Of a stretch of DNA of 64,000 bases, positions 10,362-63,048 are shown piece by piece; within the stretch, counting starts at the first letter, position 1, and each line of letters starts with the position of its first letter. A program made the position numbers and the translations under genes. Below the pieces are notes generated by a model, which saw only the letters and a list, made by a program, of their open reading frames with translations, did no database searches and was not told where the DNA came from. Source of the stretch: Nitrospira sp. (GTDB lineage Bacteria; Nitrospirota; Nitrospiria; Nitrospirales; Nitrospiraceae); assembly GCA_030653545.1 (NCBI GenBank), contig JAURZE010000033.1:1-64000 (forward strand), given 5' to 3'.

Positions 10362-11366
10362 ATGCCTGACTTAAGACGTGATCCTATCGTCGGTCGCTGG
10401 GTGATTATTTCAACCGAGCGGAACGGCCGACCGCATGATTTTGCCCAGATGCAACCGGCAAAACCGATCTCCACCGCGATCTGTCCATTTTGCCCTGGTC
10501 AGGAACGACTCACGCCGAAAGAAATCATGGCCTATCGGCCGCAACCCGGTGAACCGAACACGCCGAACTGGACCGTCCGCGTCATCCCGAACAAGTTTCC
10601 CGCCTTGCAGGTCGAAGGCGACATGGGCCGGGAGGGCATCGGGTTATATGACCGGATGAACGGCGTGGGCGCGCATGAAGTCATCATCGAATCGCCCGGC
10701 CACAAGGAAGGCCTCGCCGATCTGCCGACAAAAAAAATAGAGGATGTGCTCTGGGCCTATCGCGACCGTATGATCGATCTCCGAAAAGATCTGCGCTTCC
10801 GCTACATCCTGATCTTCAAAAACCACGGCGCCTCGGCCGGCGCTACGCTGGAACACAGTCACTCCCAACTCATCGCCCTGCCCATCGTTCCGACCAGCGT
10901 GACGGAGGAACTCGACGGCTGCCGTGCCCACTACGAGCAGAAAGAACGCTGTATCTACTGCGACATCCTCCGGCAGGACCTTGCCAGCGGCGATCGGATC
11001 GTGGCGGAGAATCAGGAATTCCTCTGCGTCACACCCTATGCCCCGCGCTTCCCGTTTGAAATGTGGATTCTCCCCAAGCGCCATGCCGCCTATTTCGAAG
11101 AGAGCCAGAAATCGCAGTTCGAATTCTTGGCTCCGATTCTCTCCGAGTCCCTGCGCCGCATGGACAAAGCGCTCGGCCGTCCCTCCTACAACTTCATGCT
11201 CCACAGCTCTCCGCTGCACGAAAAGACCGGCGACTACTACCACTGGCACCTGGAAATCATCCCCAAACTCACCCAGGTCGCTGGCTTCGAATGGGGCACC
11301 GGCTTCTACATCAATCCCGTCGCGCCCGAAGAATCAGCCAAGTTCCTGAGGGAAGCGGAGCTGTAG
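10362..11366 (+). CDS. galT: Galactose-1-phosphate uridylyltransferase family protein
   Basis: A 334-aa GalT-family member of the HIT superfamily. It begins LRRDPIVGRWVIISTERNGRP, typical of the family, and has a CPFCPG zinc motif near residue 44. The active-site triad is H165-S-H167-S-Q169 in LEHSHSQLIALP, with His167 expected to form the uridylyl-enzyme. GalT interconverts UDP-glucose and galactose-1-phosphate. In bacteria lacking the rest of the Leloir pathway such proteins may instead serve as ADP-glucose or glucan-linked nucleotidyltransferases. The CCA transferase start codon follows its stop directly. Confidence 0.88.
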   Translation: MPDLRRDPIVGRWVIISTERNGRPHDFAQMQPAKPISTAICPFCPGQERLTPKEIMAYRPQPGEPNTPNWTVRVIPNKFPALQVEGDMGREGIGLYDRMNGVGAHEVIIESPGHKEGLADLPTKKIEDVLWAYRDRMIDLRKDLRFRYILIFKNHGASAGATLEHSHSQLIALPIVPTSVTEELDGCRAHYEQKERCIYCDILRQDLASGDRIVAENQEFLCVTPYAPRFPFEMWILPKRHAAYFEESQKSQFEFLAPILSESLRRMDKALGRPSYNFMLHSSPLHEKTGDYYHWHLEIIPKLTQVAGFEWGTGFYINPVAPEESAKFLREAEL

Positions 11367-12749
11367 GTGCCCGTTCGCTTCCGCATTGAAAACCCCGCGC
11401 TCGCTCTGCCCCTCCGCCAGATCGAACAATTGGTGCGCCGGGCCGGCGGCCGGCTCTGGCTGGTCGGCGGCTGCGTGCGGGATCTGATCCTCGAACGGCA
11501 ACCGCGCGATCTGGACCTCGAAGTATCCGGTCTTCCTCCCGGCCAGCTGCACAGCATTCTCACCGAACACTTTTCCGTCCAGTTCGTCGGTCGGGCCTTC
11601 GGCGTGTTCAAGCTCGACGGTCTGCCGATCGACGTCTCGCTGCCCATGCGACGCCCTCTGGATGAAGCCACGATCCCCGGGCTGCTCCACCTGGCCGATC
11701 CTGATATGGACATCGACGAAGCCCTTTCACGGCGAGACTTCACCATCAACGCCATGGCCTGGGATCCCGATACACTGGATTTTCATGATCCCTTTCACGG
11801 CCGTGAGGATCTCAAGACCGGTACCTTGCGCCATGTCTCCGAACGATTTTCCGAAGACCCGTTGCGCGTGCTGCGCGGGCTGCAACTGGTTGCGCGCTTC
11901 AACCTGACGGCGGCACCGGAGACGAATGCGCTCTGCCGCTCGCTCACACAAGAGCATCTCCCAAGCGAACGGATCTGGGAGGAGTGGAAAAAATTCCTGC
12001 TCCAGGGGGTTACCCTCTCGAAGGGACTGCAGTGGCTCCACGATTGCGGCTGGCTGCGGTTCTATCCGGAGCTTGCCGCGTTGCCCGGTTGCCCGCAAGA
12101 TCCGGTGTGGCATCCGGAGGGCGATGTCTGGGTTCACACCCTCCACTGCCTTGACTGGTTTGCCAGGGAACGCACCGGCCAGGCGGAGGACGATCTGACG
12201 GTCGGCCTTGGCGTGCTCTGTCACGACTTCGGCAAGCCCGCCACGACGAAGGAAGAGTTCGGGCGCATCACCTCGCGCGGCCATGAACCGGCAGGAGAGG
12301 CCCCGACCAGGCAATTTCTTGGCCGGCTCATCAATCGAACCGGCCTGGCCGACGAGGTTGTGGCTCTTGTGCTGTGTCACCTGCGACCCCGTGCGCTCTA
12401 CGATGGGAAGGCGTCCAACAGTGCGGTGCGCCGCCTCGCCAGACACGTAGGCCGTATTGATCGCCTCGTGCGGGTCGCGCGCGCCGATCATGCCGGCCGG
12501 CCCCCGAAACCCTTCGATGACTTTCCCGCCGGCGAGTGGTTGCTCAAGAAAGCACGCGAATTGGATGTCGAAACACAAGTCCCTACTCCCATCGTGATGG
12601 GCCGCCACCTCCTTGCCATGGGAGTTTCACCGGGGCCGGAGATGGGCAAACACCTTGATGACTGCTACGAAGCCCAGTTGGATGGCTTGTTCACCACACT
12701 CGATGAAGGTCTGGCTTATGCCCGCCGGATGCTCTCCTCTACTTCTTAA
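11367..12749 (+). CDS. cca: CCA-adding tRNA nucleotidyltransferase with HD domain
   Basis: A 460-aa class II nucleotidyltransferase. The head domain has LWLVGGCVRDLILERQPRD followed by DLDLEVSG (the GG and D-x-D catalytic elements). RDFTINAMAWDPDT and RPLRVLRG-like motifs (EDPLRVLRGLQLVARF) are intact. A C-terminal HD phosphohydrolase domain is present (VLCHDFGKP near residue 288). It either adds or repairs the 3' CCA of tRNAs or acts as a poly(A) polymerase. The start is GTG with zero spacing after galT, implying coupled translation. Confidence 0.87.
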   Translation: MPVRFRIENPALALPLRQIEQLVRRAGGRLWLVGGCVRDLILERQPRDLDLEVSGLPPGQLHSILTEHFSVQFVGRAFGVFKLDGLPIDVSLPMRRPLDEATIPGLLHLADPDMDIDEALSRRDFTINAMAWDPDTLDFHDPFHGREDLKTGTLRHVSERFSEDPLRVLRGLQLVARFNLTAAPETNALCRSLTQEHLPSERIWEEWKKFLLQGVTLSKGLQWLHDCGWLRFYPELAALPGCPQDPVWHPEGDVWVHTLHCLDWFARERTGQAEDDLTVGLGVLCHDFGKPATTKEEFGRITSRGHEPAGEAPTRQFLGRLINRTGLADEVVALVLCHLRPRALYDGKASNSAVRRLARHVGRIDRLVRVARADHAGRPPKPFDDFPAGEWLLKKARELDVETQVPTPIVMGRHLLAMGVSPGPEMGKHLDDCYEAQLDGLFTTLDEGLAYARRMLSSTS

Positions 12750-48082: not shown

Positions 48083-48275
48083 GTCATGTCCCTCGCTCAA
48101 TGTGTGGGGAACCTACGTATGGCGGCCAGTGTATTGGTTGCATTATTGGGGCGTCAAGCCACCCCCTCTTTTTTCCTGACGAAGGGACCACAGCAGTCTC
48201 ATTAGTGTGTGTTAGTGCGCACTGACGCAGAATCGACGTGAGAACCATCCCACATGACGGATGCCATTCACAACG

Positions 48276-48320
48276 TGGTGAGCCGGCTGGGACTCGAACC
48301 CAGGGCCCTCGCCTTAAAAG
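48276..48320 (-). other. tRNA-Lys(TTT) 3' fragment, island attachment site
   Basis: On the minus strand this 45-nt segment reads as the 3' half of a tRNA: anticodon loop CTTTTAA, 3' anticodon-stem strand GGCGA, variable loop GGGCC, T-arm CTGGG-TTCGAGT-CCCAG, acceptor CCGGCTC, A, CCA. The 5' half is missing, and the bases upstream (GGAA) do not pair with GGCGA. This is the classic displaced 3' end left when an element integrates into the anticodon loop of a tRNA gene. The rebuilt full gene should lie beyond the right edge of the window. Confidence 0.75.
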
Positions 48321-48671: not shown

Positions 48672-48848
48672 CTACGGTTCTTTGGCGTCGGGTTCTTTGG
48701 GATCCGATACAACTATAAGCAGCGTACAAATCGGCCCGAAGAACAATGATCCAAACCACCACCCTAAGCCACTCCTGCCTTTAGTCTGGGCAAGACCGGA
48801 ATTGATGAGCGAAAGAGTAAACCAGCCAACGGCAAATTCACCCTTCAT
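48672..48848 (-). CDS. 58-aa small membrane protein, possible cassette gene
   Basis: A short frame starting at ATG 48848 with GGAGG eight bases upstream. It begins MKGEFAVGWFTLSLINSG and contains GLGWWFGSLFFGP followed by a TM helix (CTLLIVV). The stop is at 48672. It follows an integron-like core site (GTTAGCC, 48883-48877) by 28 bases, the usual position of a cassette gene. A second coherent frame, shifted by one base, continues directly after it (about 48674-48556, VEVIPYEIKSCIGATPD...), so the original gene may have been longer and is now frameshifted. Confidence 0.55.
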   Translation of the reverse strand: MKGEFAVGWFTLSLINSGLAQTKGRSGLGWWFGSLFFGPICTLLIVVSDPKEPDAKEP

Positions 48849-48876: not shown

Positions 48877-48951
48877 GGCTAACGTTCCGCATAACCGGCT
48901 GGCAATGAAGCGCAGCGAAATTACCAGTCCGAGTTGATGCGGTTGTTAGGC
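48877..48951 (-). other. Integron-type attC recombination site
   Basis: Read on the minus strand: GCCTAAC (48951-48945) fits the inverse core RYYYAAC, and GTTAGCC (48883-48877) fits GTTRRRY except at position six. Between them a 16-nt arm (48887-48902, CCGCATAACCGGCTGG) pairs with 48924-48942 over all 16 bases. Three unpaired bases lie in the opposite arm (48928, 48932, 48936), the extrahelical bases that set attC strand polarity. The 75-bp size and a 21-nt variable loop are normal. The site begins 8 bp after the 1180-aa gene's stop, as in a mobile gene cassette. Confidence 0.78.
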
Positions 48952-48958
48952 ATTGAGA

Positions 48959-51900
48959 TTACTCATCTTCCCGGTCTTTGTGATCGCTAATTATTCGTTC
49001 AGCCTCTCGGTCATAGCTGTCTGCTAAGCCTCTCAAGGTAACGGCAAATCGTTGAAAGCCAGCGTTCTCTATTTCCTCGGCTTTTCTTCTGAACTGTTCG
49101 GCTAGTTCCCTCTCCGGCTTTCCAGTTGGGTCAACCCAATGAACACCTCGTGAGTTGTATGTCCCCGTTCTGAAACCGTTGCGTATGTTATCTGCTTCAC
49201 GGTCGTTCAATGCGGCAGCTACAGCACGGCGTATCCACAATCCGTCTGGATCGGGTGGGGTATAAATCAATACTTCGCCAATATTGATGAGTGCAACTTC
49301 CAGGTGGCCGGATTCTGTACAGAATGCCTTTACGCTTTGGAGCCATTCGGTGAAACGCTTTTCGCTAAACGTTCCATCTTTTTGTGTCCCCGGCGGTGTC
49401 TTCCACTCATGCAACAGCCGCCAGGCATTTGTTGCAATTGCCTTTGATTCCTCGGAGGGTTTTATCGACGACTGATCTTCTTTCTTGGATCGGTAGATCA
49501 GTCGAATTACCTCGCAAAAGAACTCGGGGTCATTGGCCAGCCTGCTTTCAAGGAGTTGAGGCGCGGCACCTCTATGACCGTCGAGCAAGGGAACATATGC
49601 CCACTCGACTCTAAAGAGGTCATCCTGGTTAACCGAAGGCTCTGCCTGAAGAAACTTGATCAATTCGACGATGTGGTACCCGTCCATGGCGTAGCTAGGC
49701 TCACCGGAGGAAAGCGCTGCGAGCAACGCTCGAACACATTGATTAGTATCGATCGGCTGCTTGGCATGCCGCATCCTGTTCAGGCAGTTGATTGCCGCGT
49801 GTGGTCTACCATGCTCAATGAGCTTCTCAATAGCAATGTCAAGATCGCCATCGGCCTGATAAGCATTGGCGTCGGTGCGGGTCCAATACTCACTCTCGTG
49901 CATCTGAAGCCACTCAGAAGCGCGATCCCATGCTTCCTTGATAAATGGCAAACAAGCCAGGAATTGTCCTGCTTGCTCTGGCGTCCAATCAGATTTATCG
50001 ATGTCGTCGCACCACTCCCAACCTTTGAGGTGGTAACGCTGCCAGATAAAACCGCTCACCAATGCCTTGCGCTTATTGTCCGGTGTATTCAGAAAGTGAG
50101 GCAAAATGGTTCGCTCAATTGCTGCATCGGCAATAACGCCAAGTGCGTACCCAACCTGACCGGGTGAAGAAGCGGATTCGGCAAATCGGATTACACCCTC
50201 TGCGCCATATCGATGAAAGATTTCCGAAATGGCCGCTTCACGACGCGTGTTGAGTTTCTTTCGCTGCTCTTCCCAATCGCCGTTCTCTTCGTAGAGATCA
50301 AAATCACGATCTGTAAAGAGGTGCTGATATAAATTGAACGGGTTCGTCGGGGCGAGTTGTTCGGCCACTTGTTCAATACGGGTAATCAGTTCGTCGGGCA
50401 ATGCCCATTTAGCATCGAAGAACCGCCGGTGTTTATTTGTGAATTTCGTTAGACGGTCCCAAATCGAAAGTCGTTGCTCTTCAGGAAGTTCTGAAATGGG
50501 CTGGGAGGCAAGAGTCTGGAGCAGTTGATCAAAAGCAGGCTTAGGCAGGTTATCGAAATGGTCAATCAATGCGGAAAGCCGAGCGGTATCTTGGCCTGCG
50601 GCAGCCACCGCAAGCTCCGCGTAAAAAGATGCCTGCTGCCAGTATTCCTGATGCGTAACGCCTTTTCCCCAATCATCGGGGATTGTCTTGCGCCAGCTTG
50701 GTTTGTGCGATCCAAAAGAGGTCTGGTGCTGGCCGGGCAGAAGCTGAATGATCAGATTCCAGGCGATATTCGGCCATTCACTAAGAATTGTCCGCACCGC
50801 CACCTTGCGCTTGTCAACTGATGCCAGCGTTTGCGGCAGCCAGGGCAGCAAAATGGTTGCAAGCGAATTGGATGGGCGATTGGCCCACTGGCCTCCGGGG
50901 TCATGGCTGGCAAGTTCGCCAAGCGCAACACAGACACGAACCAGATATTGGTCATCCCAGGCCAGCCCTTCCAACGCCCAGAGCAGGCCGGTTAAATAAT
51001 TGCCACCGGTGATGCCGTTGCCTTCTTGGGAAAAAAGCTCATCAAAGGGACAGGGTGTCTGACGCATCGCCTTCTCGACCGCATCAAGAAATTCACCGGG
51101 GGCGGCTTCGGCCAGGGTGGGCAGTAAATCGTTCAGGCTTCCCCACAAAAACCAGTCAGCGTTAGTCAGGAGTTCACGTATCACCAGCACGCTGGTTGCT
51201 TCAGCTTTCCCTTGGGAGCAGTTACCGCACGCGTGTGGCTGGCTGCCCAGAATTGCCAAACCATCAGCGATGCCTTTTCGCAATACATGTGAACACTTCA
51301 GCACCTTGCCATGAATGCTTGCCGCGTATCGCTCTTCAACAGGCAGTTCAAAAGAGGGGTCTGGCTCCTTCAGTACGGAAATAGCCTGCGACCTGAATGC
51401 ATCGAGGTTCTGATTAAGGATACGCGATCCCAGCAGGTTCCAAAGCTCGGCTCGATTAACAACTTTCCAGATGCCGTTTTTAAGTGACAACGGGCTATCA
51501 GGGCAATGCAATATTTCCCGCGCCTTCTTTAGCCACTCGTCATAACTGATGCCGAGCAGTTGGGTTATTGCCTCAAGGTCGCATTGACTCTTGTCTTGCC
51601 AAGCGCCAATTAAAACTGCCAAAGCCAGATAGGTAGCGTCCGGGTGCTGAGTCCAATCGGTTTTAGGCTTATCTTGTGGCGCCTTGAACTCCTCAGGAAT
51701 CTCCACCACGGCCTTTTGTTTAAAGGCATCCAGCAGATCGTCCGGCATCTTTCCGGGTGTGATGGTGCCGGCATCCTGATTCCACGTTTGTACGATATCG
51801 ACAACCCTTGACCAGACCCACTGCGGGTACTGCTGCTGGAATTGGGAAATATGGGAATGCAGCAGAGACAGGACAACACCGAACTCGTTACCAAGATCGT

Positions 51901-52501
51901 AGCCGAGTAAATGGAAGGTGTTCAGAAAGGCATAGAGTTCGTCCTTCGAAATATCCTTGCCACCGTTTGCTGTTTTCAGGTGGTACTGAATGACCTCAAG
52001 TTTCTCGGTGCTCTTTGCTGGGCTGAAATTTGCCTGCTGGACGTTTCTGAAAAACTCATCAACGTTCTTGGAGTGCCTCGCCTGGTTCAAAAGCCATTGC
52101 ACAGTGTGTGCATCGGTCGCGCTGAGCGGGCCTGTGATTAGTGCAATAACATCCTTGTTTCTCGTGAACACCTTGGGATTATTGAAATCATTCCACGCAG
52201 CCTGCATCACCTCCCCAAACAGAGCGCTGCCTTGCGTAATGGCAATGGAATGCTTGATCTGCCCGAGAAGTTTCCGCCGTTCCTTACTGTCTACGTTTTC
52301 TACGACAACAATAAGGTCGTCTGTATCGACGCCGTCAATCTTGCCCTGAAGTTTGATTTCCCTAATGGGCCAGCAGGGAAGACAGGGGGCGTGTCCCCCG
52401 GTGAGCATTAACGCGACAAATGACGCCTGTACGTGGGCTTCAAAATGAACCCCGCCGCCTCCAGTGGAGAATGGATTGCTTAGTGTTTTCTTCTTTGCCA
52501 T
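48959..52501 (-). CDS. Putative nuclease/helical-repeat defence protein, 1180 aa
   Basis: A very large cytoplasmic protein. Residues 1-130 begin NPFSTGGGGVHFEAHVQASF and carry E21, D61/D62 (GVDTDDLIVVVE) and Q81-x-K83 (GQIKHS), the D...(E/Q)xK arrangement of DUF4297/Cap4-like PD-(D/E)XK nucleases at the front of anti-phage proteins. From about 280 onward it is a long run of probable helical (ARM/TPR-like) repeats, with no P-loop NTPase motif that I can find. It is flanked by a core site at 52533-52527 and an attC at 48951-48877, as if it were a giant integron cassette. The start lacks a Shine-Dalgarno. Function is inferred and no name is assigned. Confidence 0.72.
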   Translation of the reverse strand: MAKKKTLSNPFSTGGGGVHFEAHVQASFVALMLTGGHAPCLPCWPIREIKLQGKIDGVDTDDLIVVVENVDSKERRKLLGQIKHSIAITQGSALFGEVMQAAWNDFNNPKVFTRNKDVIALITGPLSATDAHTVQWLLNQARHSKNVDEFFRNVQQANFSPAKSTEKLEVIQYHLKTANGGKDISKDELYAFLNTFHLLGYDLGNEFGVVLSLLHSHISQFQQQYPQWVWSRVVDIVQTWNQDAGTITPGKMPDDLLDAFKQKAVVEIPEEFKAPQDKPKTDWTQHPDATYLALAVLIGAWQDKSQCDLEAITQLLGISYDEWLKKAREILHCPDSPLSLKNGIWKVVNRAELWNLLGSRILNQNLDAFRSQAISVLKEPDPSFELPVEERYAASIHGKVLKCSHVLRKGIADGLAILGSQPHACGNCSQGKAEATSVLVIRELLTNADWFLWGSLNDLLPTLAEAAPGEFLDAVEKAMRQTPCPFDELFSQEGNGITGGNYLTGLLWALEGLAWDDQYLVRVCVALGELASHDPGGQWANRPSNSLATILLPWLPQTLASVDKRKVAVRTILSEWPNIAWNLIIQLLPGQHQTSFGSHKPSWRKTIPDDWGKGVTHQEYWQQASFYAELAVAAAGQDTARLSALIDHFDNLPKPAFDQLLQTLASQPISELPEEQRLSIWDRLTKFTNKHRRFFDAKWALPDELITRIEQVAEQLAPTNPFNLYQHLFTDRDFDLYEENGDWEEQRKKLNTRREAAISEIFHRYGAEGVIRFAESASSPGQVGYALGVIADAAIERTILPHFLNTPDNKRKALVSGFIWQRYHLKGWEWCDDIDKSDWTPEQAGQFLACLPFIKEAWDRASEWLQMHESEYWTRTDANAYQADGDLDIAIEKLIEHGRPHAAINCLNRMRHAKQPIDTNQCVRALLAALSSGEPSYAMDGYHIVELIKFLQAEPSVNQDDLFRVEWAYVPLLDGHRGAAPQLLESRLANDPEFFCEVIRLIYRSKKEDQSSIKPSEESKAIATNAWRLLHEWKTPPGTQKDGTFSEKRFTEWLQSVKAFCTESGHLEVALINIGEVLIYTPPDPDGLWIRRAVAAALNDREADNIRNGFRTGTYNSRGVHWVDPTGKPERELAEQFRRKAEEIENAGFQRFAVTLRGLADSYDREAERIISDHKDREDE

Positions 52502-52526
52502 CTACGGCCACTGCCCGGATTCTTAT

Positions 52527-52544
52527 GCCTAACAATGTTTAGGC
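52527..52544 (-). other. Integron core site with partial attC arm
   Basis: On the minus strand GCCTAAAC (52544-52537), ATT, GTTAGGC (52533-52527). GTTAGGC is a perfect GTTRRRY core in the expected place just ahead of the 1180-aa gene. A complete attC arm that would pair with it is not visible within about 150 bp upstream. It may be a truncated attC or a secondary insertion site. Confidence 0.5.
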
Positions 52545-52666
52545 GGACCCATATAAGAACCAGATCTGTCATGTTCTATCCGCGTAACACACCTTTAATG
52601 ATCGTGAACAATATCTCATCATCGACGTGGGATACGGAGTGCTTTTGCGGTTGGCTCCGTCCTTCA

Positions 52667-55600
52667 TTACTGACTCGTCATCCCATAGACCATGTCACCG
52701 ATGAAACGGCGGAAGGACTCGTTCTCTACGAACTGCTTGTAGACCTGCGTGTCGTCCTTCAAGAGGTGCTGCATGACCTTGGCCAGCGCCTGATCATGGG
52801 CCATACGCGCGGTGTGCGGCGTGTTCTCTTTTGCATTCTGGTAGGCCGCATCGGCAGCGACCTTGGGAGCGATGTCGTCGCGGATACGCTTCGCGACCCG
52901 GTCGGTATCGGTGAACAGCGTACCGAACTGCTCATTAAACGTCTTGAGGATGTTGCTCAAACGGTCAAGTTCAGGCTCGGCCTTGTGCCCGTGAGCGTCC
53001 GTCGGGACCGGTTCAATCTCTGCATCACTATCCGCTAAGGCAATCTTCATCGTCGCCTTCTTCTCTACGCGGTAGCTGTCCATGTCGATGGCATCGAGAA
53101 TGCCTTTGGCGAGATCCTCTTCCTGCGGCGCGGGCAACTTGGGCACCAGCAGATTGAGTAGGATCGAGAGCTTCTCCCATTCCGGATTGCTGTAGGGAAT
53201 GACCGACGAAAGGAAGCTGTACGTGCGGCAGAACACCTTGGCCTTACCTTTAAAGCCAACCTGGCCGTCCTCGTCGAGTTTACTCACATAAACGGCCACG
53301 CATGCATCAAGGATCGGATCGAGTTGGTCGCGCTCGGCATCACCCAGGAACAACGTCACCACTTGCTTTACCTGCTCCGGTGAATAGACCTGGGCCGCAT
53401 CCAGCGCACCCTTCAGGTCGTGCAGCTTGTTGGGATCAGTCTCCTCAGCAAGCAGCGTGGTGCGGTAGTAGTCCTGGAAAGCAAAGGTGATCGCCTCGCT
53501 ATTGTTCTGGAAGTCGAGCACGAAGCAGTCGTGCTTTTGCGGGTGCGCGCGGTTGAGTCTCGACAAGGTCTGCACGGCTTTGATGCCCGAAAGCGGCTTG
53601 TCCACGTACATCGTGTGCAGCAACGGCTCGTCATAGCCAGTCTGGAACTTGTCGGCGCAGATCAGGAAGCGATACGGGTCAGTCTGAATCTTTGACGCGA
53701 TCTCACTACTCGGAAACCCATTGAGCGAAGCCTCGCTCACCTTGGTTCCGCCGTACTCGTGCTCGCCCGAGAAAGCGACAATCGCCTGATACGGACTCTT
53801 GCGTTCCACCAGATACGCCTTAAACGCGTGGAAGTATTGAATGGCTCGCTCGATGCCACTCGTGACGACCATTGCTCGCGCTTGCCCGCCGATTTTCCCG
53901 GCCGCCATCACCTGCTCGTGGAAATGATCCACCATGATCTCGGCCTTGAGTTTGATCGCGTGATCGTGGCTCTCTACATAGCGACGAAGTTTCTTCTGTG
54001 CCTTCTTGGTATCGAACTCCGGATCGTCCTCCGTCTTCTTGACGAGCTTGTAGTAGCTGTCCACCGGCGTATAGGCCTTGAGCACATCGAGAATAAACCG
54101 CTCCTCAATGGCCTGCTTCATCGTGTAGCAGTGGAAGGGCCGGTGCTTGACCTTGCCCTCGGCATCCGGTGGCAGCGGCTCGCCGAACATCTCCAACGTT
54201 TTGTTCTTGGGGGTGGCGGTAAAGGCGAAGTAGCTGGCGTTGGTCAGCATCTTGCGCGCTGCCATGCGCTTGGCGAGCGCCTCATTGACGAGATCTTCCG
54301 GGTCGGTCCCCTCCTCTTCGTCACCCTTGGCATCGCCGAGCGCCTGGCTCATCGCTGCGGAGGTCTTTCCGCCCTGGCTTGAGTGCGCCTCGTCAATGAC
54401 GATGGCGAAGCGCTTGCTACCCTCGGTGGCGATCTCGTCGAGGATATGGGGGAACTTCTGCACCGTCGAGACGATGATCTTCTTCCCCTCCTGAATGAAT
54501 TTACGCAGATCACCAGAATCCTTGGCATGGCCGACCGTCGCGCCCACCTGCATGAACTGCTTGATAGTCGTCTGGATCTGGTCGTCGAGCAGGCGCCGGT
54601 CGGTGACGACGATGACCGAGTCGAAGACTTCCTTATCCTCGCGCTTCAGGCCGATAAGCTGGTGCGAAAGCCAGGCAATGGAATTGGACTTGCCGCTTCC
54701 CGCCGAATGCTGGATCAGGTAGCGCTTACCCGCCCCGTGGGCACGAACATCGGCCAGTGCCTGCCGCACCACACCAAGTTGATGGTAGCGCGGCCATACC
54801 TGTCTTTTCTTTTTTCTGCCGGTGCGCGGGTCCTTCTCCTCGACGATCTGTGCGTAGTTCTCGAGGATGTTGGTTAGGCCTGTTGGAGTAAGGATCTCTT
54901 TCCAGAGGTAATCGGTTTTGAGGCCGTGCGGATTGGGTGGGTTCCCCGCGCCGTCAAGGTAGCCCTTGTTGAAGGGCAGGAACCATGAGCCCTTCCCCCT
55001 AAGCTCAGTGCACATCTGTACTTCGCTGTCGTCCACGGCAAAGTGCACCACGCAGCGGCCAAACTCAAAGAGCCGCTCGCGTTGGTCACGGTCGCGCTTG
55101 TACTGTTCAACGGCATCCGCAACGGTCTGCTTGGTGAGGCTATTCTTCAGCTCGAAAGTCGCAATTGGCAGGCCGTTGATGAACAGGCCCAAGTCGAGCG
55201 CACGACGCGTCTCGTCCATGCTATAGGCGAGCTGCCGTGTGATCGAGAAGCGGTTCAGCGCATGCAGCGCCTCAGCCTTGGCGTTGCCCGGTGAGGGCGT
55301 GCCGTAGAACAGATCAAAGTGCACCGGCCCATGCTCCACGCCTTTGCGCAGTACATCGATGACGCCACGCTTGCCAATCTCGGCGGAAATCCGGGCGAGA
55401 AACTTGAGGCGGTTGATGTCCTTGGGATCGTTGGAGTCAGCCATCGCCAGTTTCTTGAATGCCTCGGGCTGGGTGGCGCGCAGGAAGGCGAAGAGCTGCG
55501 GCACATCGAGCGCGTGGGCGCGGTCATAGTCCTGCGCGCTGCCTGCGATATAGCCAGTCCCGCCGTAAGGCGCGAGTCGTTCAGCAGCCATGTTCGGCGC

Positions 55601-55678
55601 TACGGCGAGACCGTCCGTGCCGGTCATGTACCGTACGATGAGCGTTTCGAGACCCTTTTCGCTCGTGTCAGTGGTCAC
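52667..55678 (-). CDS. hsdR: Type I restriction endonuclease subunit R
   Basis: A 1003-aa motor-nuclease. The N-terminal PD-(D/E)XK region includes PIATFELKNSLTKQTVADAV near residue 172. The DEAD-like translocase has Walker A HSAGSGKSNSIAWL near 325 and Walker B VIDEAHSSQGG near 430, followed by helicase domain 2 (DKFQTGYDEPLLHTMYVDKPLSG). The C-terminal helical region should bind HsdM. The start is GTG 55678 with AGAGG six bases upstream. It cuts unmodified DNA after translocation and works with the hsdM and hsdS genes upstream. Confidence 0.93.
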   Translation of the reverse strand: MTTDTSEKGLETLIVRYMTGTDGLAVAPNMAAERLAPYGGTGYIAGSAQDYDRAHALDVPQLFAFLRATQPEAFKKLAMADSNDPKDINRLKFLARISAEIGKRGVIDVLRKGVEHGPVHFDLFYGTPSPGNAKAEALHALNRFSITRQLAYSMDETRRALDLGLFINGLPIATFELKNSLTKQTVADAVEQYKRDRDQRERLFEFGRCVVHFAVDDSEVQMCTELRGKGSWFLPFNKGYLDGAGNPPNPHGLKTDYLWKEILTPTGLTNILENYAQIVEEKDPRTGRKKKRQVWPRYHQLGVVRQALADVRAHGAGKRYLIQHSAGSGKSNSIAWLSHQLIGLKREDKEVFDSVIVVTDRRLLDDQIQTTIKQFMQVGATVGHAKDSGDLRKFIQEGKKIIVSTVQKFPHILDEIATEGSKRFAIVIDEAHSSQGGKTSAAMSQALGDAKGDEEEGTDPEDLVNEALAKRMAARKMLTNASYFAFTATPKNKTLEMFGEPLPPDAEGKVKHRPFHCYTMKQAIEERFILDVLKAYTPVDSYYKLVKKTEDDPEFDTKKAQKKLRRYVESHDHAIKLKAEIMVDHFHEQVMAAGKIGGQARAMVVTSGIERAIQYFHAFKAYLVERKSPYQAIVAFSGEHEYGGTKVSEASLNGFPSSEIASKIQTDPYRFLICADKFQTGYDEPLLHTMYVDKPLSGIKAVQTLSRLNRAHPQKHDCFVLDFQNNSEAITFAFQDYYRTTLLAEETDPNKLHDLKGALDAAQVYSPEQVKQVVTLFLGDAERDQLDPILDACVAVYVSKLDEDGQVGFKGKAKVFCRTYSFLSSVIPYSNPEWEKLSILLNLLVPKLPAPQEEDLAKGILDAIDMDSYRVEKKATMKIALADSDAEIEPVPTDAHGHKAEPELDRLSNILKTFNEQFGTLFTDTDRVAKRIRDDIAPKVAADAAYQNAKENTPHTARMAHDQALAKVMQHLLKDDTQVYKQFVENESFRRFIGDMVYGMTSQ

Positions 55679-55686
55679 ATGGAACC

Positions 55687-55797
55687 TCTAATCAAGTAGC
55701 CATCAAGTACCAAGGATTCTCTTACCTATTGATTTTAAAGGAGCTAGCCTTTAATTCCGCTTACTACCCTCCATTCTAATCAAGCATCCATCAAGTA
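55687..55797. repeat. 23-bp direct repeats bracketing the AlbA_2-hsdR gap
   Basis: Copy one is 55687-55709 and copy two is 55775-55797, identical at 21 of 23 positions (TCTAATCAAG...CCATCAAGTA). Copy two overlaps the AlbA_2 stop and copy one sits just before the hsdR GTG. Each unit itself contains two CATCAAG/AATCAAG halves. This suggests a duplication or an insertion scar between the two genes. Confidence 0.6.
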
Positions 55798-57281
55798 ACA
55801 CGATTTCGGTCCGGTCCGGCCCAAACCGGTATATAGCGCATGAGTTTAGGAGCCGCATCCGCATCATAGGCGACGATCACTCCCGCATCGACCGCCTCTC
55901 GGATGAGCCGTGAAGCCACAGCGAGATTCTGCGGTTCAATCCCAAACCGCTCGCGCACCGAAGTGTTGGTCAAATACTCCCGGTTCACAAAACGAAGACA
56001 CGCATGAAGATAAACAGCGCGCACCCGATCCGCCTTGTCCATTTGCGAAAGTGGGCGCGGCGCAAACAGCACGACACGCGTATGGTCCCCAGTAACTTCA
56101 GCCAATGGAGCGGGCAGTTGATACAGTTCCGTTTGAAAGACCACCTTATCCCAGCCGCTTCCACGCTCCTCACAAATGCCGATACGTCGCATCAGCGAAG
56201 CCAGCACCTCATTGCGTGACTTAGGTGGAGTATCAACAAAGCGCTGCGTATCAACCAGCGGCGCACCCGGGTTCGTGATTTCAATACGATCCTCGAACAT
56301 CTCCACCATCGGACCTACGCCGGTAGCAAAGAAGTCCTGATGGATGAGGGCATTCGCCACCAACTCACGGACCGCAAGCTCCGGAAACCTCGGTACCGTC
56401 CTGCGCAGTGCTTGTTCAATCACCTCATTTGAGGGAAGGACGCCGTTGATAAACCCGATCAGCCCTTCAAAATCAGAGGCATAACCTTTGATTCCGACGT
56501 GCTCTTTCAGTGTCTCAACGCGACTTGCGCCTCGGTACTGGATTACCCGAATCGCCTTACGCCGGAGCGAATGAAAATCTTCCAGTCCCTTGGCAAAGAG
56601 GATGGCTCCGAGATTGGTGATATTCCAACCACCGGCATCGCACGGGCAAACCAGGCTATCGTCGGCTAACGCCTTGAGGATGCCATCTCGATTCTCCGGC
56701 AACGGAAGCTTGAGCAAGTGGAAGTAGGCCGGGTAATCAAGGAGCTGCAACACCTCGTCAGCGGGAATGTGTTCGGCAGCAATCCCCTTCTCAAACGGCA
56801 TGCAATCGAATATACGCCAGAGGGCACGTTCCCGTTCAGGGAAGTCCTTGAGCCGTTTCTTGTATGACCCCACCCGGATAAACTCTTGTCCCTGGAACTG
56901 CACGGGATGCCGAAAGGCTCGTTCAATTTCCAGCAGCACAATCGATCGCCCATCCACCGTCACCTCGTAAAAGCGAAAGTGGATTTTGGGTGTCAGCAGC
57001 TTCAAGAGCCAGCTTTCCAGCTCCTCGTTGCCGACTTTTGCCGCACGAGGATTGAACCGCGTGCCAACGATGGCGTGATCCCCATCTGCCACACCCCACA
57101 CCAGATAGGCAGACGCTTTCCCTACAAGCGCCGCCGAATTACTCAAGGCTGACAGTAATTCGCCGATCTCATTCGGCTCTGCATCGTCTACTTTGAACTC
57201 TAGCCACTCGGTCTCGTGCGACAATTTACACAGCTCACGCACAAGACTCACCAGATAGCCAGCAGGCCGGTCCGTACTCAC
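55791..57281 (-). CDS. AlbA_2 (Schlafen-like) domain protein in a type I R-M operon
   Basis: A 496-aa protein. Residues about 18-120 match the AlbA_2/Slfn domain (ETEWLEFKVDDAEPNEIGELLSALSNSAAL...YLVWGVADGDHAIVGT). A HATPase_c_4-type region follows (about 290-370, FPELAVRELVANALIHQDF and EDRIEITNPGAP), and a winged helix lies near the C-terminus. Such proteins often sit inside type I restriction loci as accessory or regulatory factors of unknown function. The start is GTG overlapping the hsdS stop (GTGA), so they are translationally coupled. hsdR begins 112 bp downstream. Confidence 0.8.
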   Translation of the reverse strand: MSTDRPAGYLVSLVRELCKLSHETEWLEFKVDDAEPNEIGELLSALSNSAALVGKASAYLVWGVADGDHAIVGTRFNPRAAKVGNEELESWLLKLLTPKIHFRFYEVTVDGRSIVLLEIERAFRHPVQFQGQEFIRVGSYKKRLKDFPERERALWRIFDCMPFEKGIAAEHIPADEVLQLLDYPAYFHLLKLPLPENRDGILKALADDSLVCPCDAGGWNITNLGAILFAKGLEDFHSLRRKAIRVIQYRGASRVETLKEHVGIKGYASDFEGLIGFINGVLPSNEVIEQALRRTVPRFPELAVRELVANALIHQDFFATGVGPMVEMFEDRIEITNPGAPLVDTQRFVDTPPKSRNEVLASLMRRIGICEERGSGWDKVVFQTELYQLPAPLAEVTGDHTRVVLFAPRPLSQMDKADRVRAVYLHACLRFVNREYLTNTSVRERFGIEPQNLAVASRLIREAVDAGVIVAYDADAAPKLMRYIPVWAGPDRNRVT

Positions 57282-58699
57282 GTCTCAGCCTCCTCGGACG
57301 CTGCGTCGAGGGCCGTCTCTTCAATCTCTTCGGCACCTTCAACAAGAGATTCTAGGTCATCCGATTCTTCAGGCAACCGCGCCGCCGCCTCTTGCACATC
57401 GAGCTTGCCGGTTACCACATCAGCAACGAGGCGGGTGCGATATTCACGAAGGAGTTCGATCTCCCGTTCGAGACGAGAGATAGCGGAGTGCAGTGCACGT
57501 GTCTCGGTCTCGATACCGGCGACCAGCCTCACCTGATCATCCATCGGTGGCAGAAGCACATACAGGCATCGCACATCATCGAGGGTGAGACCGACCTTCG
57601 TTCCACCGTTCGTCTTCAGTCGGCATTGGTCCTTTCCAAACTGCGAGAGAAGCCCATACGCGACCCATCGCGGAACGGACCGCTCCGGCCGTAGCCGAAT
57701 CAACGCGGTGTGCTGGTTAACGTACGCCTCGCCAAGACCATCCGAAACAACTCCCACCGCCCCAATCTGGGCGGTGATAGAAAGCAGCAGGTCATTAGGC
57801 CTCGCTCGTGTTCTCTCTCCCTCCGCTCCAGTGGGCGGTGTCACGTAGCTGATGTGCTTCAGTCGCAGGTCGATCGAGGTAGTCGAGATGTTCCCAATTC
57901 GCAGGAAGACGAACCCATCGTCTGCATAATAGCGAGCCCATCCACGGGAGCCACTCGTAACGAACCGACAAAGGGACTTGAGCCTCCGCACCTCCCAATG
58001 CTGCGGAATGTCGCCGAGCCAGGGGATGCCGGAGGGCTTGAGGGGGGCGGAGGGGTCGAGGCCGCGGGTGACGGCGCGATGGATGATGGCCTGCTTCTGC
58101 TCGTTGAGCAGCGCGATCACCTTCCGCTTCGCCAAGATCGCTCGCTCCAGCCGCCCGTTCGCCCAGTCCAGAAACCGCACAATCGCCGTCTGCTCTTCGG
58201 GCGAGGGGACGAGCACGGGAATCTCTCGCATCCCAGGGATAGACAAATCCCACTGACCGACACGCACACCATCGGAAGCCTGTCCAAAGTGTGCGACGTA
58301 GGGTTTGCTGCGAAGCAACCTCTGACCAAAAGCGTGGTTGGCGATACGGAAGTCGAAGACATAGTAGGCTGGGCTGACGATGCCATCGCATGGTGCGATC
58401 CCCATTGAGCCCTGCCACGCCTTCATCTTGTTGATCACGAGATTGCCGGCACGAGCCACCTTGTAGTTGCTCAGGTCGTCAGGGATAACATTGTGATTCT
58501 CATCTACATCCGTGAGTGAGCGAACAAACACACCTTTCTCCCGAGCAACCGACAACAGCGGTAAGTCGGCCCGATTGCGTTCTGCTCGCTTCGAGATGAG
58601 CGAACGGAGGTTTCTCACCTCCCACTTCGCCGGGACAACGCCAAGCCACTTTGATCCCGACTCCTTGTATTCCGAATACGGCTTGAGGTTAGCGATCAT
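57278..58699 (-). CDS. hsdS: Type I restriction specificity subunit S
   Basis: A 473-aa protein made of two target-recognition domains and two conserved helices. The pseudo-repeats are clear: WLGVVPAKWEVRNLRSLI at the start and WLGDIPQHWEVRRLKSLC near residue 225, each followed by a TRD. The conserved coiled-coil segments are EEQTAIVRFLDWANGRLERAI and DDQVRLVAGIETETRALHSAI. It sets the DNA recognition sequence for HsdM/HsdR. It is one base downstream of the DUF262 gene and overlaps the AlbA_2 gene. Confidence 0.93.
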   Translation of the reverse strand: MIANLKPYSEYKESGSKWLGVVPAKWEVRNLRSLISKRAERNRADLPLLSVAREKGVFVRSLTDVDENHNVIPDDLSNYKVARAGNLVINKMKAWQGSMGIAPCDGIVSPAYYVFDFRIANHAFGQRLLRSKPYVAHFGQASDGVRVGQWDLSIPGMREIPVLVPSPEEQTAIVRFLDWANGRLERAILAKRKVIALLNEQKQAIIHRAVTRGLDPSAPLKPSGIPWLGDIPQHWEVRRLKSLCRFVTSGSRGWARYYADDGFVFLRIGNISTTSIDLRLKHISYVTPPTGAEGERTRARPNDLLLSITAQIGAVGVVSDGLGEAYVNQHTALIRLRPERSVPRWVAYGLLSQFGKDQCRLKTNGGTKVGLTLDDVRCLYVLLPPMDDQVRLVAGIETETRALHSAISRLEREIELLREYRTRLVADVVTGKLDVQEAAARLPEESDDLESLVEGAEEIEETALDAASEEAET

Positions 58700-58700
58700 C

Positions 58701-60497
58701 TCAGAGTGCCTCGAACCAGGTTTTAATTTTTTGCGCCATCAGCTTGCGACGCTCCTCCAGGAAGTTGTCATAGACAGGAATCTTATCCTCAAGCATTGAC
58801 GTCGGAATACAGTGCATATCGAGATTCGCACGAAGATCTTTCCCTTCGGTAATCCCGCCATACTTCTTTTTCCCACCCTCGCACTGCTTGACTAGTTCCC
58901 GAAAGTACTGGTCTGGAGGGGTGTCGCTAATGGCAATGTTGATCTCGCTCTGCGCCAACACGAAGTTCGCGATCTGGTTGTATCGCCCCTTCGAGAGACC
59001 CTGCTTCTTGAGATAATTGCGCGGATAAATATGGTGCACATCACTGCGGTTCATCAGAAGGGCCTGTACCGTGATGTCACGCGACAGGAATCCCTTGTCG
59101 CCCAGTTTGGCTTGCGCCGCCTTATAAGCAAGAAAGTAAGGACTCTGGCCGGAAGAGGTATCCATGAGTTGCGGCAGCATGCCAGTCCAAAAGCTCGCAG
59201 GCAGTTCCGTTTCGATAACAGAATTGGCATAGGCAACCAAGCCGCGTGCCTCGACCTGACGGATATCGACATCGAAGGCCGTCTCTGGACTGCCGCTGTA
59301 GCGTCCGCGCAGGATGGACATCACATACCACCGGCCTACCAATCTTTCTAAATCGGCAGCGGGCAAGCCATCAGCCCGGCCGCGAAGATAAAGAATGTAG
59401 GCAAAATTGACGGCGTTCTGCCCGCCGAACAGATCGCTCGTGACAAAGCCAGCTGAACGCAGGATCATCGTAAAACGGTCAAAATGCGTTTTGTTGATGA
59501 AGCGCAAAATCCCCTGCTTGAGCCGCGCGAACGATGCCTCGGCAATCGCGTCCTCATACTGCCGGGTCTCGAAGTTGCGCCCTGAAAGGAGCGCCACGAG
59601 GTCCGCTAGCTTTCCGCGTCCGAACTCCGCGGTGAACGCCACACGTAGCATGTCAGTATAGGTGGGGTCGTAAATGTCGTCGTTCACATCTTTGAGCCAC
59701 CGCATCTGCTGGAAGAACTCGGAGGCCGCGAACGCTTTGTCACCCTTTTCAATACGTCCGAGGAAATCCGGCGCAACAGCAAGATGGCAGAAATAGTCGA
59801 TCGCCTTGCGCAGCATGTTACCGCCGTACGTCTCGTTGGCGGCGATCTTCGACATGGCAAAATCGGCCTGCGATAACTCGGCTCCGGCGGAGTTCACGCG
59901 GATGAAAATCTCAGTGACGGTTTCGATGTCGAGGTCTTCGGCGAGTTCGATCAAGCCGACATGATTATTGATAATCTTGCCGAGCCGTTGGAGCACCTTG
60001 CCCACCTGTTTGCGGTCGGCAGTAGGGTTCTTCGCAACATAGTCTTCCGTCAGCTCAATTAAGTCGGCTTCTGGTGCGAACACCGCAGCGACATCCTCGA
60101 TCCAAGCAACGTCTTTGCGAATGGCAGGATTCGCAACCTCGAACTTCTCAGTTTGCGGATGAAAGGCGATCCGGATGCGGACGGTTTCATAGTCTTTGGT
60201 CAACACTTCCCGCCCGAGCAAACCCGCCATAAGTGCTGTGACTCGCTGTTGTCCATCGATAAGAATGCGCTTGCCTGCCGATGAGGTGCCGTCCTTGAGC
60301 TTAACCGTAGGGTTTCGCCACGCGATCAGGTAGCCAACGGGATATCCTTGATACAGTGAGTCGAGCAAATTACGCACCTTCGTCGGCTCCCACACGAACG
60401 GACGCTGAATTTCAGGGATTGCAATCTCGCCAGACTTGACCCATGTGAGCAGTGTCTCAATGGGATGGGGCGTGACCGAATAGCGTTGTGTGGACAT
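58701..60497 (-). CDS. DUF262 protein with C-terminal HNH nuclease domain (GmrSD-like)
   Basis: A 598-aa protein. The N-terminus has [33 protein letters not shown] and the DUF262 signature DGQQRVTAL near residue 80, which binds and hydrolyses NTP in GmrS-type restriction proteins. The C-terminal [14 protein letters not shown] near residue 485 is an HNH-type (DUF1524-like) nuclease motif. Such proteins act as modification-dependent (type IV) or phosphorothioate-linked restriction factors. Here it sits between hsdM and hsdS with almost no spacing, so it may be a second defence layer inside the operon. Confidence 0.82.
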
Positions 60498-60725
60498 CTA
60501 TTTCCTCGCCTTTACAGATCGTCCCTCTGTTTCCATTAGACCGGAGAACCGCTTCCAACCAATTCGTTTCTTGTTGATGGAGTTGCCTTTTGGCAGCCAC
60601 TCAATGTTGCCCTTACTGATTAGCAAGGTCCCTAGTTTCTCGCCATTCCGCTTCACCGTGATTGCGAGGTCCTTATGACCAATCACTTTGGTGTCGACTC
60701 TCGCACGGACTTGGTGTTGAGCCAT
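60498..60725 (-). CDS. 75-aa conserved-looking protein between hsdM and DUF262
   Basis: A small basic protein starting at ATG 60725 behind an excellent GAGGAGGGGG, with its stop directly adjacent to the DUF262 start. The sequence (KDLAITVKRNGEKLGTLLISKGNIEWLPKG) is a short beta-rich fold I have seen near restriction genes but cannot name. The tight packing argues that it is a real gene and part of the operon. Confidence 0.65.
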   Translation of the reverse strand: MAQHQVRARVDTKVIGHKDLAITVKRNGEKLGTLLISKGNIEWLPKGNSINKKRIGWKRFSGLMETEGRSVKARK

Positions 60726-60741
60726 ACCCCCTCCTCAGGAA

Positions 60742-63036
60742 TCATTTGCCAATGATCTCAGAAAGTAGTCCTTCTGTTTCCTTTTCCAGCGCGAGGATGT
60801 CAGCTTGAATTTCTTCTAGCGTGCGCAGTGGCTGCGGCTTGTAAAAGTGCCGCGTAAAGCTAACCTCGTAGCCGATCTTGGTGGCGTCCTCCTTGATCCA
60901 GGCATCGGACGTATAGGGCAGCACCTCGCGTCGGATAAAGGCTTCAATGCCGCCGTCCTCTAAGAGCGGCACCTGCTCGGTATCGCGCAGATCGGAGTCG
61001 GGCTCGTATTCGACAATGGCGGGCTTGCCGTCCACCGTGGCATCGAACAGACCGTGAAGCGGATCAGCTTTGGCCTTGCCTGCCTTGTGGACTTTGGCGA
61101 CGACGGGAGGCGCGGTTTCGACGCGCCAACTCACGGCCTTGAAGATCTGCTTGAGGTCGGCGGCGGCGAGTTTAATGTCGGCCTTCTTGAGCGCAGCCTC
61201 GACACGGTCGCGGAAGACGTTGTGGTCCTCAAAGAGCTGATCGCCCAACGCCTCGCGTAGCTTCGTGGCGACTTCGACCAGGCGGCCATCGCGCTCCCAG
61301 GTTTTGGAATCGAGCAGTTTCTTTTTCTTCTTCTCGGGCAGCCCCTTCTTCGTTCCGCCGCCCTCTTCATCATCACCATCTTCCTCGTCGCTGCCCCACT
61401 CGGCCAGACGCTTCTCCAGCTTTGTCGAGATTTTAGAGAATTTTGTGAAGAGAGAGTCGCCGAACTCCTCGTAGAGTGTGGCACGGAGATCTTCATCGCC
61501 GGCTGCAAATCTCAGCGTCTCGATGGCCTTGAGCGTGAGCTGGCTGTGCAGACGAAGCGGGCGCTCGACGGTGACCTTCCAGTAGCCGAAGGCGGCGTTG
61601 GGGAAGATCTTCGACTCTGGCGTCTCCTTGAAGTCGAGGAAAGTGCGGCTAATGCGCTCGATGTCCTCGGCCGAGAGTTCGCAGTTCTTCTTGCCGAGGT
61701 TCTTGCGCAGCGGCTTGAACCACTGAGTCGCGTCGATAAGGTGCACCTGTCCCTTTCGATGGGCAGGCTTTTTGTTCGACAGCACCCAGATGTAAGTGGC
61801 TATGCCGGTATTGTAGAAGAGATTGAGCGGCAGCGCGACGATGGCTTCGAGCCAATCGTTTTCGATGATCCAGCGGCGGATGTTGCTCTCGCCCTGGCCG
61901 GCATCGCCTGTGAAGAGCGACGAGCCGTTGTGAACTTCGGCAATGCGGCTGCCGAGCGCGGACTTGGCATTCATCTTTGACGCCATGTTGGCCAGAAAGA
62001 GCATCTGGCCGTCGCTAGAGCGTGTGACGAGCGACAGCTCCTCGCCCTTGTGCATCACTTTGAAGCGAGGGTCACGCATGCCGTCCTTACCGCCCATCGC
62101 TTCGAGATCCTTCTTCCAGCTCTTGCCATAGGGCGGATTGGAGAGCATGAAGTCGAACTCCTGCGCCTGGAATGCGTCGTGCGAAAGCGTGGACCATTCC
62201 GCGCCGCCGAAGATGTGGTCGGCACTCTCACCCTCGCCTTTGAGAAGCATATCCGCCTTGCAGACAGCGTATGTCTCGGGATTGATCTCCTGCCCATAGA
62301 GCAAACAGGTGATCTGCTGCTTGCGCTTCTTGCCGATTGCCGTGAGCGTCTCTTCCCCCACGGTGAGCATGCCGCCGGTGCCACAGGCGCAGTCGTAAAG
62401 CAGATACGTGCCAGACTTAAGCTGGTTCTCGATCGGCAGGAACACGAGGTTTGCCATCAAATGCACAGCATCACGCGGAGTCCAGTGCTGTCCAGCTTCC
62501 TCGTTGTTGTCTTCATTGAACTTGAGGACCAACTCCTCGAATACCGTGCCCATCGCATGGTTGTCGATACCGGCCGGGGAGAGATCGATGTCGGGATCGA
62601 GGAACTTGTTGATGAGCGTGGCTAGAGCATCACCTTTAGACAGCGTTTTCAGCTGATTGTGAAACTTGAAATTCTCGAGGATGTCCTGAACGTTTTGCGA
62701 GAAGCCGTTAAGATAGTCCTCGAAGTCCGCGAGTAGCTGCTGCTGGTTTCCTCGGGACTTGAGATCGCGCAGAGTGAACTTCGATGTGTTGTAAAAAGCC
62801 TGGCCAGCAGCCTCGCAGAGCGCCGCACGCTGCTCGGTGATGCGTGCCTTATCAAGCATCTTCTTGGTGTCCAGCACCTTTTGCTTGGTCGGCTCGAGCA
62901 CCGCGTCCATGCGCCGGATGACGCACATCGGCAAGATCACGTCCGGGTACTTGCCCCGCTTGAACAAATCGCGGAGGACATCATCGGCGATACCCCAGAT
63001 AAACGAGACGATCTTGTTATGAGTTGCTTGGTCCAC
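60742..63036 (-). CDS. hsdM: Type I restriction-modification DNA methyltransferase subunit M
   Basis: A 764-aa N6-adenine methyltransferase. It opens MDQATHNKIVSFIWGIADD, the common HsdM start. The GTG at 63036 has AAAGGAG about 11 bases upstream, whereas the GTG at 63048 overlaps that Shine-Dalgarno. SAM motif I is YDCACGTGGML near 217, and motif IV NPPY (MLSNPPYGKSW) near 300 marks adenine methylation. An acidic/Lys-rich linker (about 515-555) precedes the C-terminal helical region. It modifies the sites chosen by hsdS. It is the first gene of the operon. Its upstream gap (63049-63330) shows no gene. Confidence 0.93.
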   Translation of the reverse strand: MDQATHNKIVSFIWGIADDVLRDLFKRGKYPDVILPMCVIRRMDAVLEPTKQKVLDTKKMLDKARITEQRAALCEAAGQAFYNTSKFTLRDLKSRGNQQQLLADFEDYLNGFSQNVQDILENFKFHNQLKTLSKGDALATLINKFLDPDIDLSPAGIDNHAMGTVFEELVLKFNEDNNEEAGQHWTPRDAVHLMANLVFLPIENQLKSGTYLLYDCACGTGGMLTVGEETLTAIGKKRKQQITCLLYGQEINPETYAVCKADMLLKGEGESADHIFGGAEWSTLSHDAFQAQEFDFMLSNPPYGKSWKKDLEAMGGKDGMRDPRFKVMHKGEELSLVTRSSDGQMLFLANMASKMNAKSALGSRIAEVHNGSSLFTGDAGQGESNIRRWIIENDWLEAIVALPLNLFYNTGIATYIWVLSNKKPAHRKGQVHLIDATQWFKPLRKNLGKKNCELSAEDIERISRTFLDFKETPESKIFPNAAFGYWKVTVERPLRLHSQLTLKAIETLRFAAGDEDLRATLYEEFGDSLFTKFSKISTKLEKRLAEWGSDEEDGDDEEGGGTKKGLPEKKKKKLLDSKTWERDGRLVEVATKLREALGDQLFEDHNVFRDRVEAALKKADIKLAAADLKQIFKAVSWRVETAPPVVAKVHKAGKAKADPLHGLFDATVDGKPAIVEYEPDSDLRDTEQVPLLEDGGIEAFIRREVLPYTSDAWIKEDATKIGYEVSFTRHFYKPQPLRTLEEIQADILALEKETEGLLSEIIGK

Positions 63037-63048
63037 TAGGGGGTGCAC

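Follow-up and report, generated by a model that had tools for sequence, protein, structure and literature searches.

The locus described here lies in a 64,000-nucleotide stretch of Nitrospira sp. DNA (positions 1 to 64,000 of contig JAURZE010000033.1), referred to below as the window, and is an integrase-less attI-cassette-attC unit with a single attC. Taken as a whole, it is very likely best explained by the placing of a single gene cassette, by an integron integrase (IntI, gene intI), into one copy of a dispersed attI-like site. The unit comprises the following features, all on the minus strand (aa, amino acids; ORF, open reading frame; R2, covariance model of the dispersed element).

52527..52627, attI-like left half of the dispersed element (R2 match 52527-52629)
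52538..52544, L box GCCTAAA of the attI-like site
52527..52533, R box or core GTTAGGC, with the crossover G^TT at 52533/52532
48883..52532, complete gene cassette of 3650 bp, starting with TTAGGC past the attI-like G^TT and ending on the G of the R' box of the attC
48959..52501, 1180-aa cassette gene, with a predicted Cap4/LmuA-like N-terminal nuclease fold and an alpha-solenoid
48877..48951, attC site, with R'' GCCTAAC at 48951-48945 and R' GTTAGCC at 48883-48877
48672..48848, 58-aa ORF, beginning 28 bp past the attC R' box

Read along the minus strand, the hsdR stop at 52667 is followed by about 40 bp of other sequence and by the 100-bp attI-like block (52627-52527). The core GTTAGGC that ends the block is separated by 25 bp from the 1180-aa gene, which is followed after 7 bp by the attC and after a further 28 bp by the 58-aa ORF. 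The 1180-aa gene is oriented towards the attC and the unit is bounded by core boxes, which identifies it as a gene cassette with strict limits at T52532 and G48883. The 58-aa ORF, for which no Pfam match was obtained, is probably a second cassette whose own attC has been lost. No intI is present in the 64-kb window, as had already been stated in the initial annotation.

The attC site

The initial annotation described a textbook attC beside the 1180-aa gene, and its coordinates, boxes, 16-bp stem, three bulges and 21-nt loop were all confirmed. The foldable bottom strand corresponds to the plus strand of the window and the attC top strand to the minus strand. The plus-strand fold consists of a 16-bp stem (6+3+3+4), a 21-nt apical region and the outer R''/R' pairing, with the three single bulged bases (T48928, A48932 and G48936) all on one arm. 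The hairpin has a folding energy of -17.5 kcal/mol with DNA parameters (z -3.8), and none of 200 shuffled sequences folded equally well. The R'' box fits RYYYAAC fully and the R' box fits GTTRRRY at 6 of 7 positions; the same GTTAGCC also terminates an array attC at locus L103. A single occurrence of the pattern GCCTAAC-N40..70-GTTRGSC was found in the window, against an expectation of 0.04. A stricter search, in which boxes and fold were combined, gave 0.02 matches of at most 90 bp per shuffled strand.

The covariance-model search that had been proposed was carried out with model R1, trained on 20 attC sites of other genomes that stand in arrays or at intI-linked loci, one of them from plasmid R46; the window attC and copies of the 1180-aa gene cassette were excluded from training. 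In the window its sole match is the exact site at 48877-48951, on the minus strand (38.2 bits, E 1.1e-7). When the whole host genome is searched, the window attC is returned with E 6.9e-6 as one of four matches, the others lying on contig 16 at 10758 and on contig 26 at 67314 and 163057. The stem of the window attC has one match in the host genome, so that the possibility of an ordinary dispersed stem repeat, raised in the initial annotation, does not hold. Nothing in Rfam matched around the site, and a BLAST search of plasmid records gave no match to the window attC.

Judged from sequence, fold and covariance model, with its boxes, its one-arm extrahelical bases and an independent model match, the hairpin is a genuine attC. 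A chance hairpin or an ordinary transcription terminator downstream of the gene, for which the frequency of strong inverted repeats after stop codons would speak, is refuted to near certainty by the independent attC model match at E 1e-7, by the matching core box that precedes the 1180-aa gene, and by an attC 91% identical behind a homologous gene in another phylum.

In comparison with integron cassettes and attC sites as modelled by IntegronFinder, the locus shares the R''/R' boxes, the one-strand extrahelical bases in an imperfect hairpin, the position of the attC a few bp past the stop codon and the single gene per cassette; it differs in its length of 3.65 kb, its 1180-aa gene, its single attC and the lack of a nearby integrase. 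The initial classification as a cluster of attC sites lacking an integrase (CALIN) is retained insofar as a cassette with an attC occurs here without a neighbouring intI. It falls short in that an attI-like site with a core box precedes the gene and that the window holds one attC, whereas the IntegronFinder 2.0 default for CALIN is at least 2 attC (PMC9024848).

A dispersed element interrupted at G^TT

In a DNA search with the cassette region, the block that precedes the gene recurred throughout the genus, whereas the gene itself did not. The aligned copies of this element end CCTAAACATTGTTRRRY, with a different gene behind each. After several cassettes a second conserved stretch was found, starting from the attC's own G^TT (GTTAATGCGACAGGGCTGAGGACCGC...). 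The two halves were joined into a predicted empty element, which was searched in 172 genomes of the host family, and 150 matches were listed. Among these, one copy is full-length and empty (genome G158, contig 8, 8059-8184; GGCCTAAACATAGTTAATGCGGCAAGGC). The left halves number 28, of which 24 end at query positions 61-64, within or adjoining the shared GTT; among the 121 right halves, 97 begin exactly on the G of G^TT (query position 60) and 111 within positions 57-63. Because the ends of the half-matches cluster at G^TT and a continuous copy exists, the cassettes interrupt the dispersed repeat at a single nucleotide.

With the element model R2, nine copies are detected in the host genome, and copies are present in 121 of the 172 family genomes, with a maximum of 18 in one genome and some in tandem. 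Host copies lie on contigs 13, 23, 24 and 26 as well, some of them without a detected attC behind the next gene. Many copies have in common a left extension around CGACCCAAAGCAGAAGTCCACGACTGACCGCTATCAG that is not intI sequence (L128, L129, L131, L132, L137, L143 and L050); it is possibly an end of the dispersed element. Two other interpretations of the block were dropped: a variable attC, given that an R' core is present with no R'' partner, and an array spacer only, once the empty copy had been found.

The element is short, non-coding and dispersed, it has conserved left and right parts around the cassette, and it occurs in tandem. A mobile element resembling a miniature inverted-repeat transposable element (MITE), which would carry whole cassettes on transposition so that the integrase no longer matters, would have just these properties. 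It is nevertheless improbable: every listed copy has a different gene behind it, with the switch always at G^TT, and this calls for insertion by IntI after dispersal; neither terminal repeats nor target duplications were established.

The association between attC and element also bears on the insertion of cassettes into the dispersed site. In the host genome, each of the four attC sites is preceded on its own strand by an element copy, at a distance of 0.8-3.6 kb. Given 9 copies in a genome of 3.94 Mb, we estimate at about 0.005 the chance that a given attC falls within 4 kb of a copy and on the correct strand. Among the matches listed for the family, 17 attC sites have an element within 5 kb with the attC downstream on the same strand, 3 have the attC only upstream on the same strand, and none is on the opposite strand. 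This family count is a lower bound, the attC and element lists each holding the best 150.

Resemblance to attI and relation to intI

The block ends GCCTAAACATT-GTTAGGC. When the window sequence, GCCTAAACATTGTTAGGC, is compared with attI1 of plasmid R46, CCCTAAAACAAAGTTGGGC, both boxes are found at an attI1-like spacing; the L and R boxes flank G^TT, and it is at G^TT that cassettes are inserted. The resemblance to attI1 of class 1 integrons thus extends to an L box (G/C)CCTAAA and an R box GTTRRRY a few bases apart (boxes as given in PMC12901181) and to the point of insertion. The differences are that the element is dispersed in many copies, nearly all without intI, that intI, in the two copies linked to it, is located upstream and points the same way as the cassettes, and that further upstream repeats are only suggested. 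No classical sigma-70 promoter was found in the attI-like element. The neighbour of the block in the window is hsdR and not intI, a neighbour that homologous copies in genomes G206 and G123 do possess; the name attI-like is used because intI does not adjoin the window copy.

In G206, which belongs to the same genus, an intact 435-aa integron integrase frame stands directly upstream of the block, which is followed by a rhodanese-like cassette and an attC. In G123 an intI broken by stops occupies the same position; there, the first gene behind the attI encodes a 584-aa protein (L102, 1331-3085) with a start resembling a restriction-type protein. Because it sits directly behind intI in these two genomes, the block is, on the evidence of sequence, the intI-attI spacer plus the attI of this lineage's integrons, with intI and cassettes co-oriented.

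Within the host genome no intI scores above the family cut-off, and a complete integron with a functional intI is accordingly lacking. The genome-wide search for intI and attC that had been proposed did recover, besides the four attC matches, a C-terminal intI remnant on contig 16. In this region (10758-11793, L050) the remnant is flanked by two attI-like pieces, and behind it come a 145-aa cassette gene and the contig 16 attC (50.2 bits). In a wider comparison, intI above the family cut-off is found in 26 of 148 genomes of the phylum and attC matches at E <= 1e-4 in 97 of 175 genomes of the family, so an attC is not unusual for this group, although the initial annotation had called one in such an island unusual. 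A separate integron, with intI and about ten attC sites in series, was observed in a genome of the same family, G139 (L100, contig 1, 2402000-2416200).

The contig 16 remnant, together with the order intI, element and cassette in G206 and G123, would also suit an origin of the attI-like copies as stumps of complete integrons from which intI was deleted, with no dispersed pad as such. This is possible, if somewhat doubtful. Among 34 copies checked, intI coding sequence is found upstream in 2, and 22 nt of the intI end are retained in 1 (L145). Many of the remaining copies share a stretch that begins about 20 nt after the intI stop, several share a different left extension that is not intI, and the number of copies, up to 18 per genome with some in tandem, also argues against stumps.

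Cassette insertion into a non-classical attG site is documented (Loot et al. 2024, cited in PMC12772301; PMC12901181), and no intI lies near the locus; the repeat might then be a frequent intergenic sequence in which G^TT is present by coincidence. This is unlikely, in view of the presence of both attI boxes at an attI1-like spacing, the occurrence of the site sequence behind intI in two genomes, and the reuse of one nucleotide in many genomes. The locus resembles an attG insertion in being a single cassette outside a complete integron, and differs from it in that the target is a conserved attI-like repeat and not a random site. The Delta-attI cassettes of mobile integrons (PMC12901181) likewise place attI sequence between cassettes; in that case, however, a truncated attI replaces the attC in class 1 and class 2 arrays, whereas here the attI-like blocks are dispersed and the attC is kept.

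The cassette gene in other phyla

Homologues of the 1180-aa gene, with up to 89% amino-acid identity, were found at 39 distinct loci in many phyla. An attC is detected by R1 behind the homologue at L010, L014, L016, L017, L024 and L032, and by alignment at L031 and L022; the identity to the window attC is 91% in L010 and 86% in L031. In L017 and L032 the homologue is an array member amid other attC sites. The unit therefore recurs with its attC in other contexts, as a cassette does. Furthermore, the 31-bp leader from the core box to the ATG is 77-90% identical to that of the window in L010, L048, L014, L013, L017 and L011, while the sequence upstream of the core box is unrelated to the window in all six. 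The 5' boundary of the cassette is placed at the core box because the leader homology ends there.

In other genomes the homologue occurs without an attC and is tightly placed within restriction operons. It is found between hsdS and hsdR in L023 and behind hsdS in L026; in both L029 and L043 it follows an Eco57I-type methylase, and in L029 it also precedes GmrSD. In the gene tree, cassette and operon forms are intermixed and many phyla are mixed, with weak support at many forks; the tree does not split the two forms, since 4 changes are required and the clustering is no greater than with shuffled labels. A very long one-gene cassette that is spread over many phyla, and also found inside restriction operons, would offer a route for moving a large putative anti-phage protein.

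The 1180-aa protein

The 1180-aa protein could be assigned to no family in Pfam, NCBIfam or PADLOC (with PADLOC 2.0.0, none at E 1e-3). HsdR, HsdM and HsdS domains were not found in it with the same three resources, and nothing there marks it as a type I subunit. A sequence search of the PDB returned nothing convincing, and Foldseek with the whole model listed helical-repeat proteins alone. An AlphaFold2 model built from 27 homologues has a mean predicted local distance difference test score (pLDDT) of 83.8 and a predicted template modelling score (pTM) of 0.50, which leaves the domain placement uncertain. In this model, residues 13-264 align to Cap4 (Z 10.7, root-mean-square deviation (rmsd) 4.0 over 196 residues) and to Lamassu LmuA (Z 10.2). 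Avs3 is also listed, with a loose whole-length alignment (rmsd 40.9) that concerns shared parts only.

All 27 sequences carry E21, D61, D62, Q81 and K83 without exception, so that the predicted model presents a PD-(D/E)XK-like fold with the acidic and QxK residues of the Cap4/LmuA type. Beyond this N-terminal fold, the rest of the protein is predicted to be an alpha-solenoid. The likeness to Cap4 and LmuA thus lies in the predicted fold of residues 13-264 and the invariant E, D, D and QxK, whereas a long helical repeat, and not a SAVED domain or an SMC partner, is joined to it here. From fold and neighbourhood, the protein is a probable anti-phage nuclease, of which the helical-repeat part is perhaps a sensor.

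Proposed origin of the unit

In the insertion of a single cassette into a dispersed attI-like site, that site would be the left half of a short repeat. The repeat would stem from the lineage's intI-attI spacer and have become dispersed, without intI, through the host family. The 3.65-kb cassette, made up of the 1180-aa gene and its attC, would then have been inserted by an integron integrase at G^TT in an attI x attC reaction. The IntI may have acted in trans from elsewhere in the genome, or may have belonged to a past integron now reduced to the contig 16 remnant. The putative cassette nuclease would add to the neighbouring restriction island, inside the tRNA-Lys island. The cassette is probably immobile at present, because the assembly has no complete integrase.

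Several observations weigh against this explanation. Among the matches listed, 133 of 153 family attC sites have no listed element within 5 kb, in part because both lists stop at the best 150; many of them belong to other integrons or places. In addition, five of the nine element copies in the host have no detected attC. The matches listed include one empty copy only. The conserved right half is absent after the window attC, where the 58-aa ORF stands instead. Both R2 and the element alignment were derived from copies found with the window's own sequence and measure its spread, not independence. The element could, moreover, be a repeat serving as a hot spot and not a true attI. Finally, the nuclease assignment depends on a predicted structure with a pTM of 0.50 and on sequence identity of at most 12%.

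The usual description of attI is of one site beside one intI. Dispersed docking sites suggest that gene capture is spread over the chromosome as opposed to one array. A distributed integron, with one or a few integrases serving a large number of dispersed attI pads in trans and a single cassette in each pad, is put forward tentatively as a possibility; if true, it would place captured genes at many chromosomal loci, defence islands included, and not in one array. An attI-box repeat that reaches 18 copies per genome, is interrupted at one nucleotide by different cassettes and occurs once in the empty state would make in-trans cassette capture directly testable. Beyond class 1 integrons, attI sites have been poorly characterized (PMC9024848). 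Searches of open-access papers turned up no account of dispersed attI sites for this group, which is not proof of absence.

Genomic island and neighbouring genes

Upstream of the cassette and on the same strand lie the five genes of the restriction island, and downstream of it a copy of a tRNA-Lys 3' end.

48275..48320, minus strand, 46-bp tRNA-Lys 3'-end copy, which probably marks the left end of the island
52667..63048, minus strand, restriction island genes (five), as follows
52667..55678, minus strand, hsdR
55791..57281, minus strand, AlbA_2/HATPase gene
57278..58699, minus strand, hsdS
58701..60497, minus strand, GmrSD_N gene
60742..63048, minus strand, hsdM

The initial annotation placed the attC in a tRNA-linked restriction island. 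The island with its restriction system was recovered; its probable left boundary is the 46-bp tRNA-Lys repeat at 48275-48320 and not the tRNA-Glu at 46.0 kb. The other 46-bp copy is found at the tRNA-Lys gene of the same contig (contig 33), at about 70723-70768 and outside the window. The island thus spans 48275-70768, with 22.5 kb between the 46-bp copies, and a tyrosine-recombinase gene lies near 70.1-70.6 kb.
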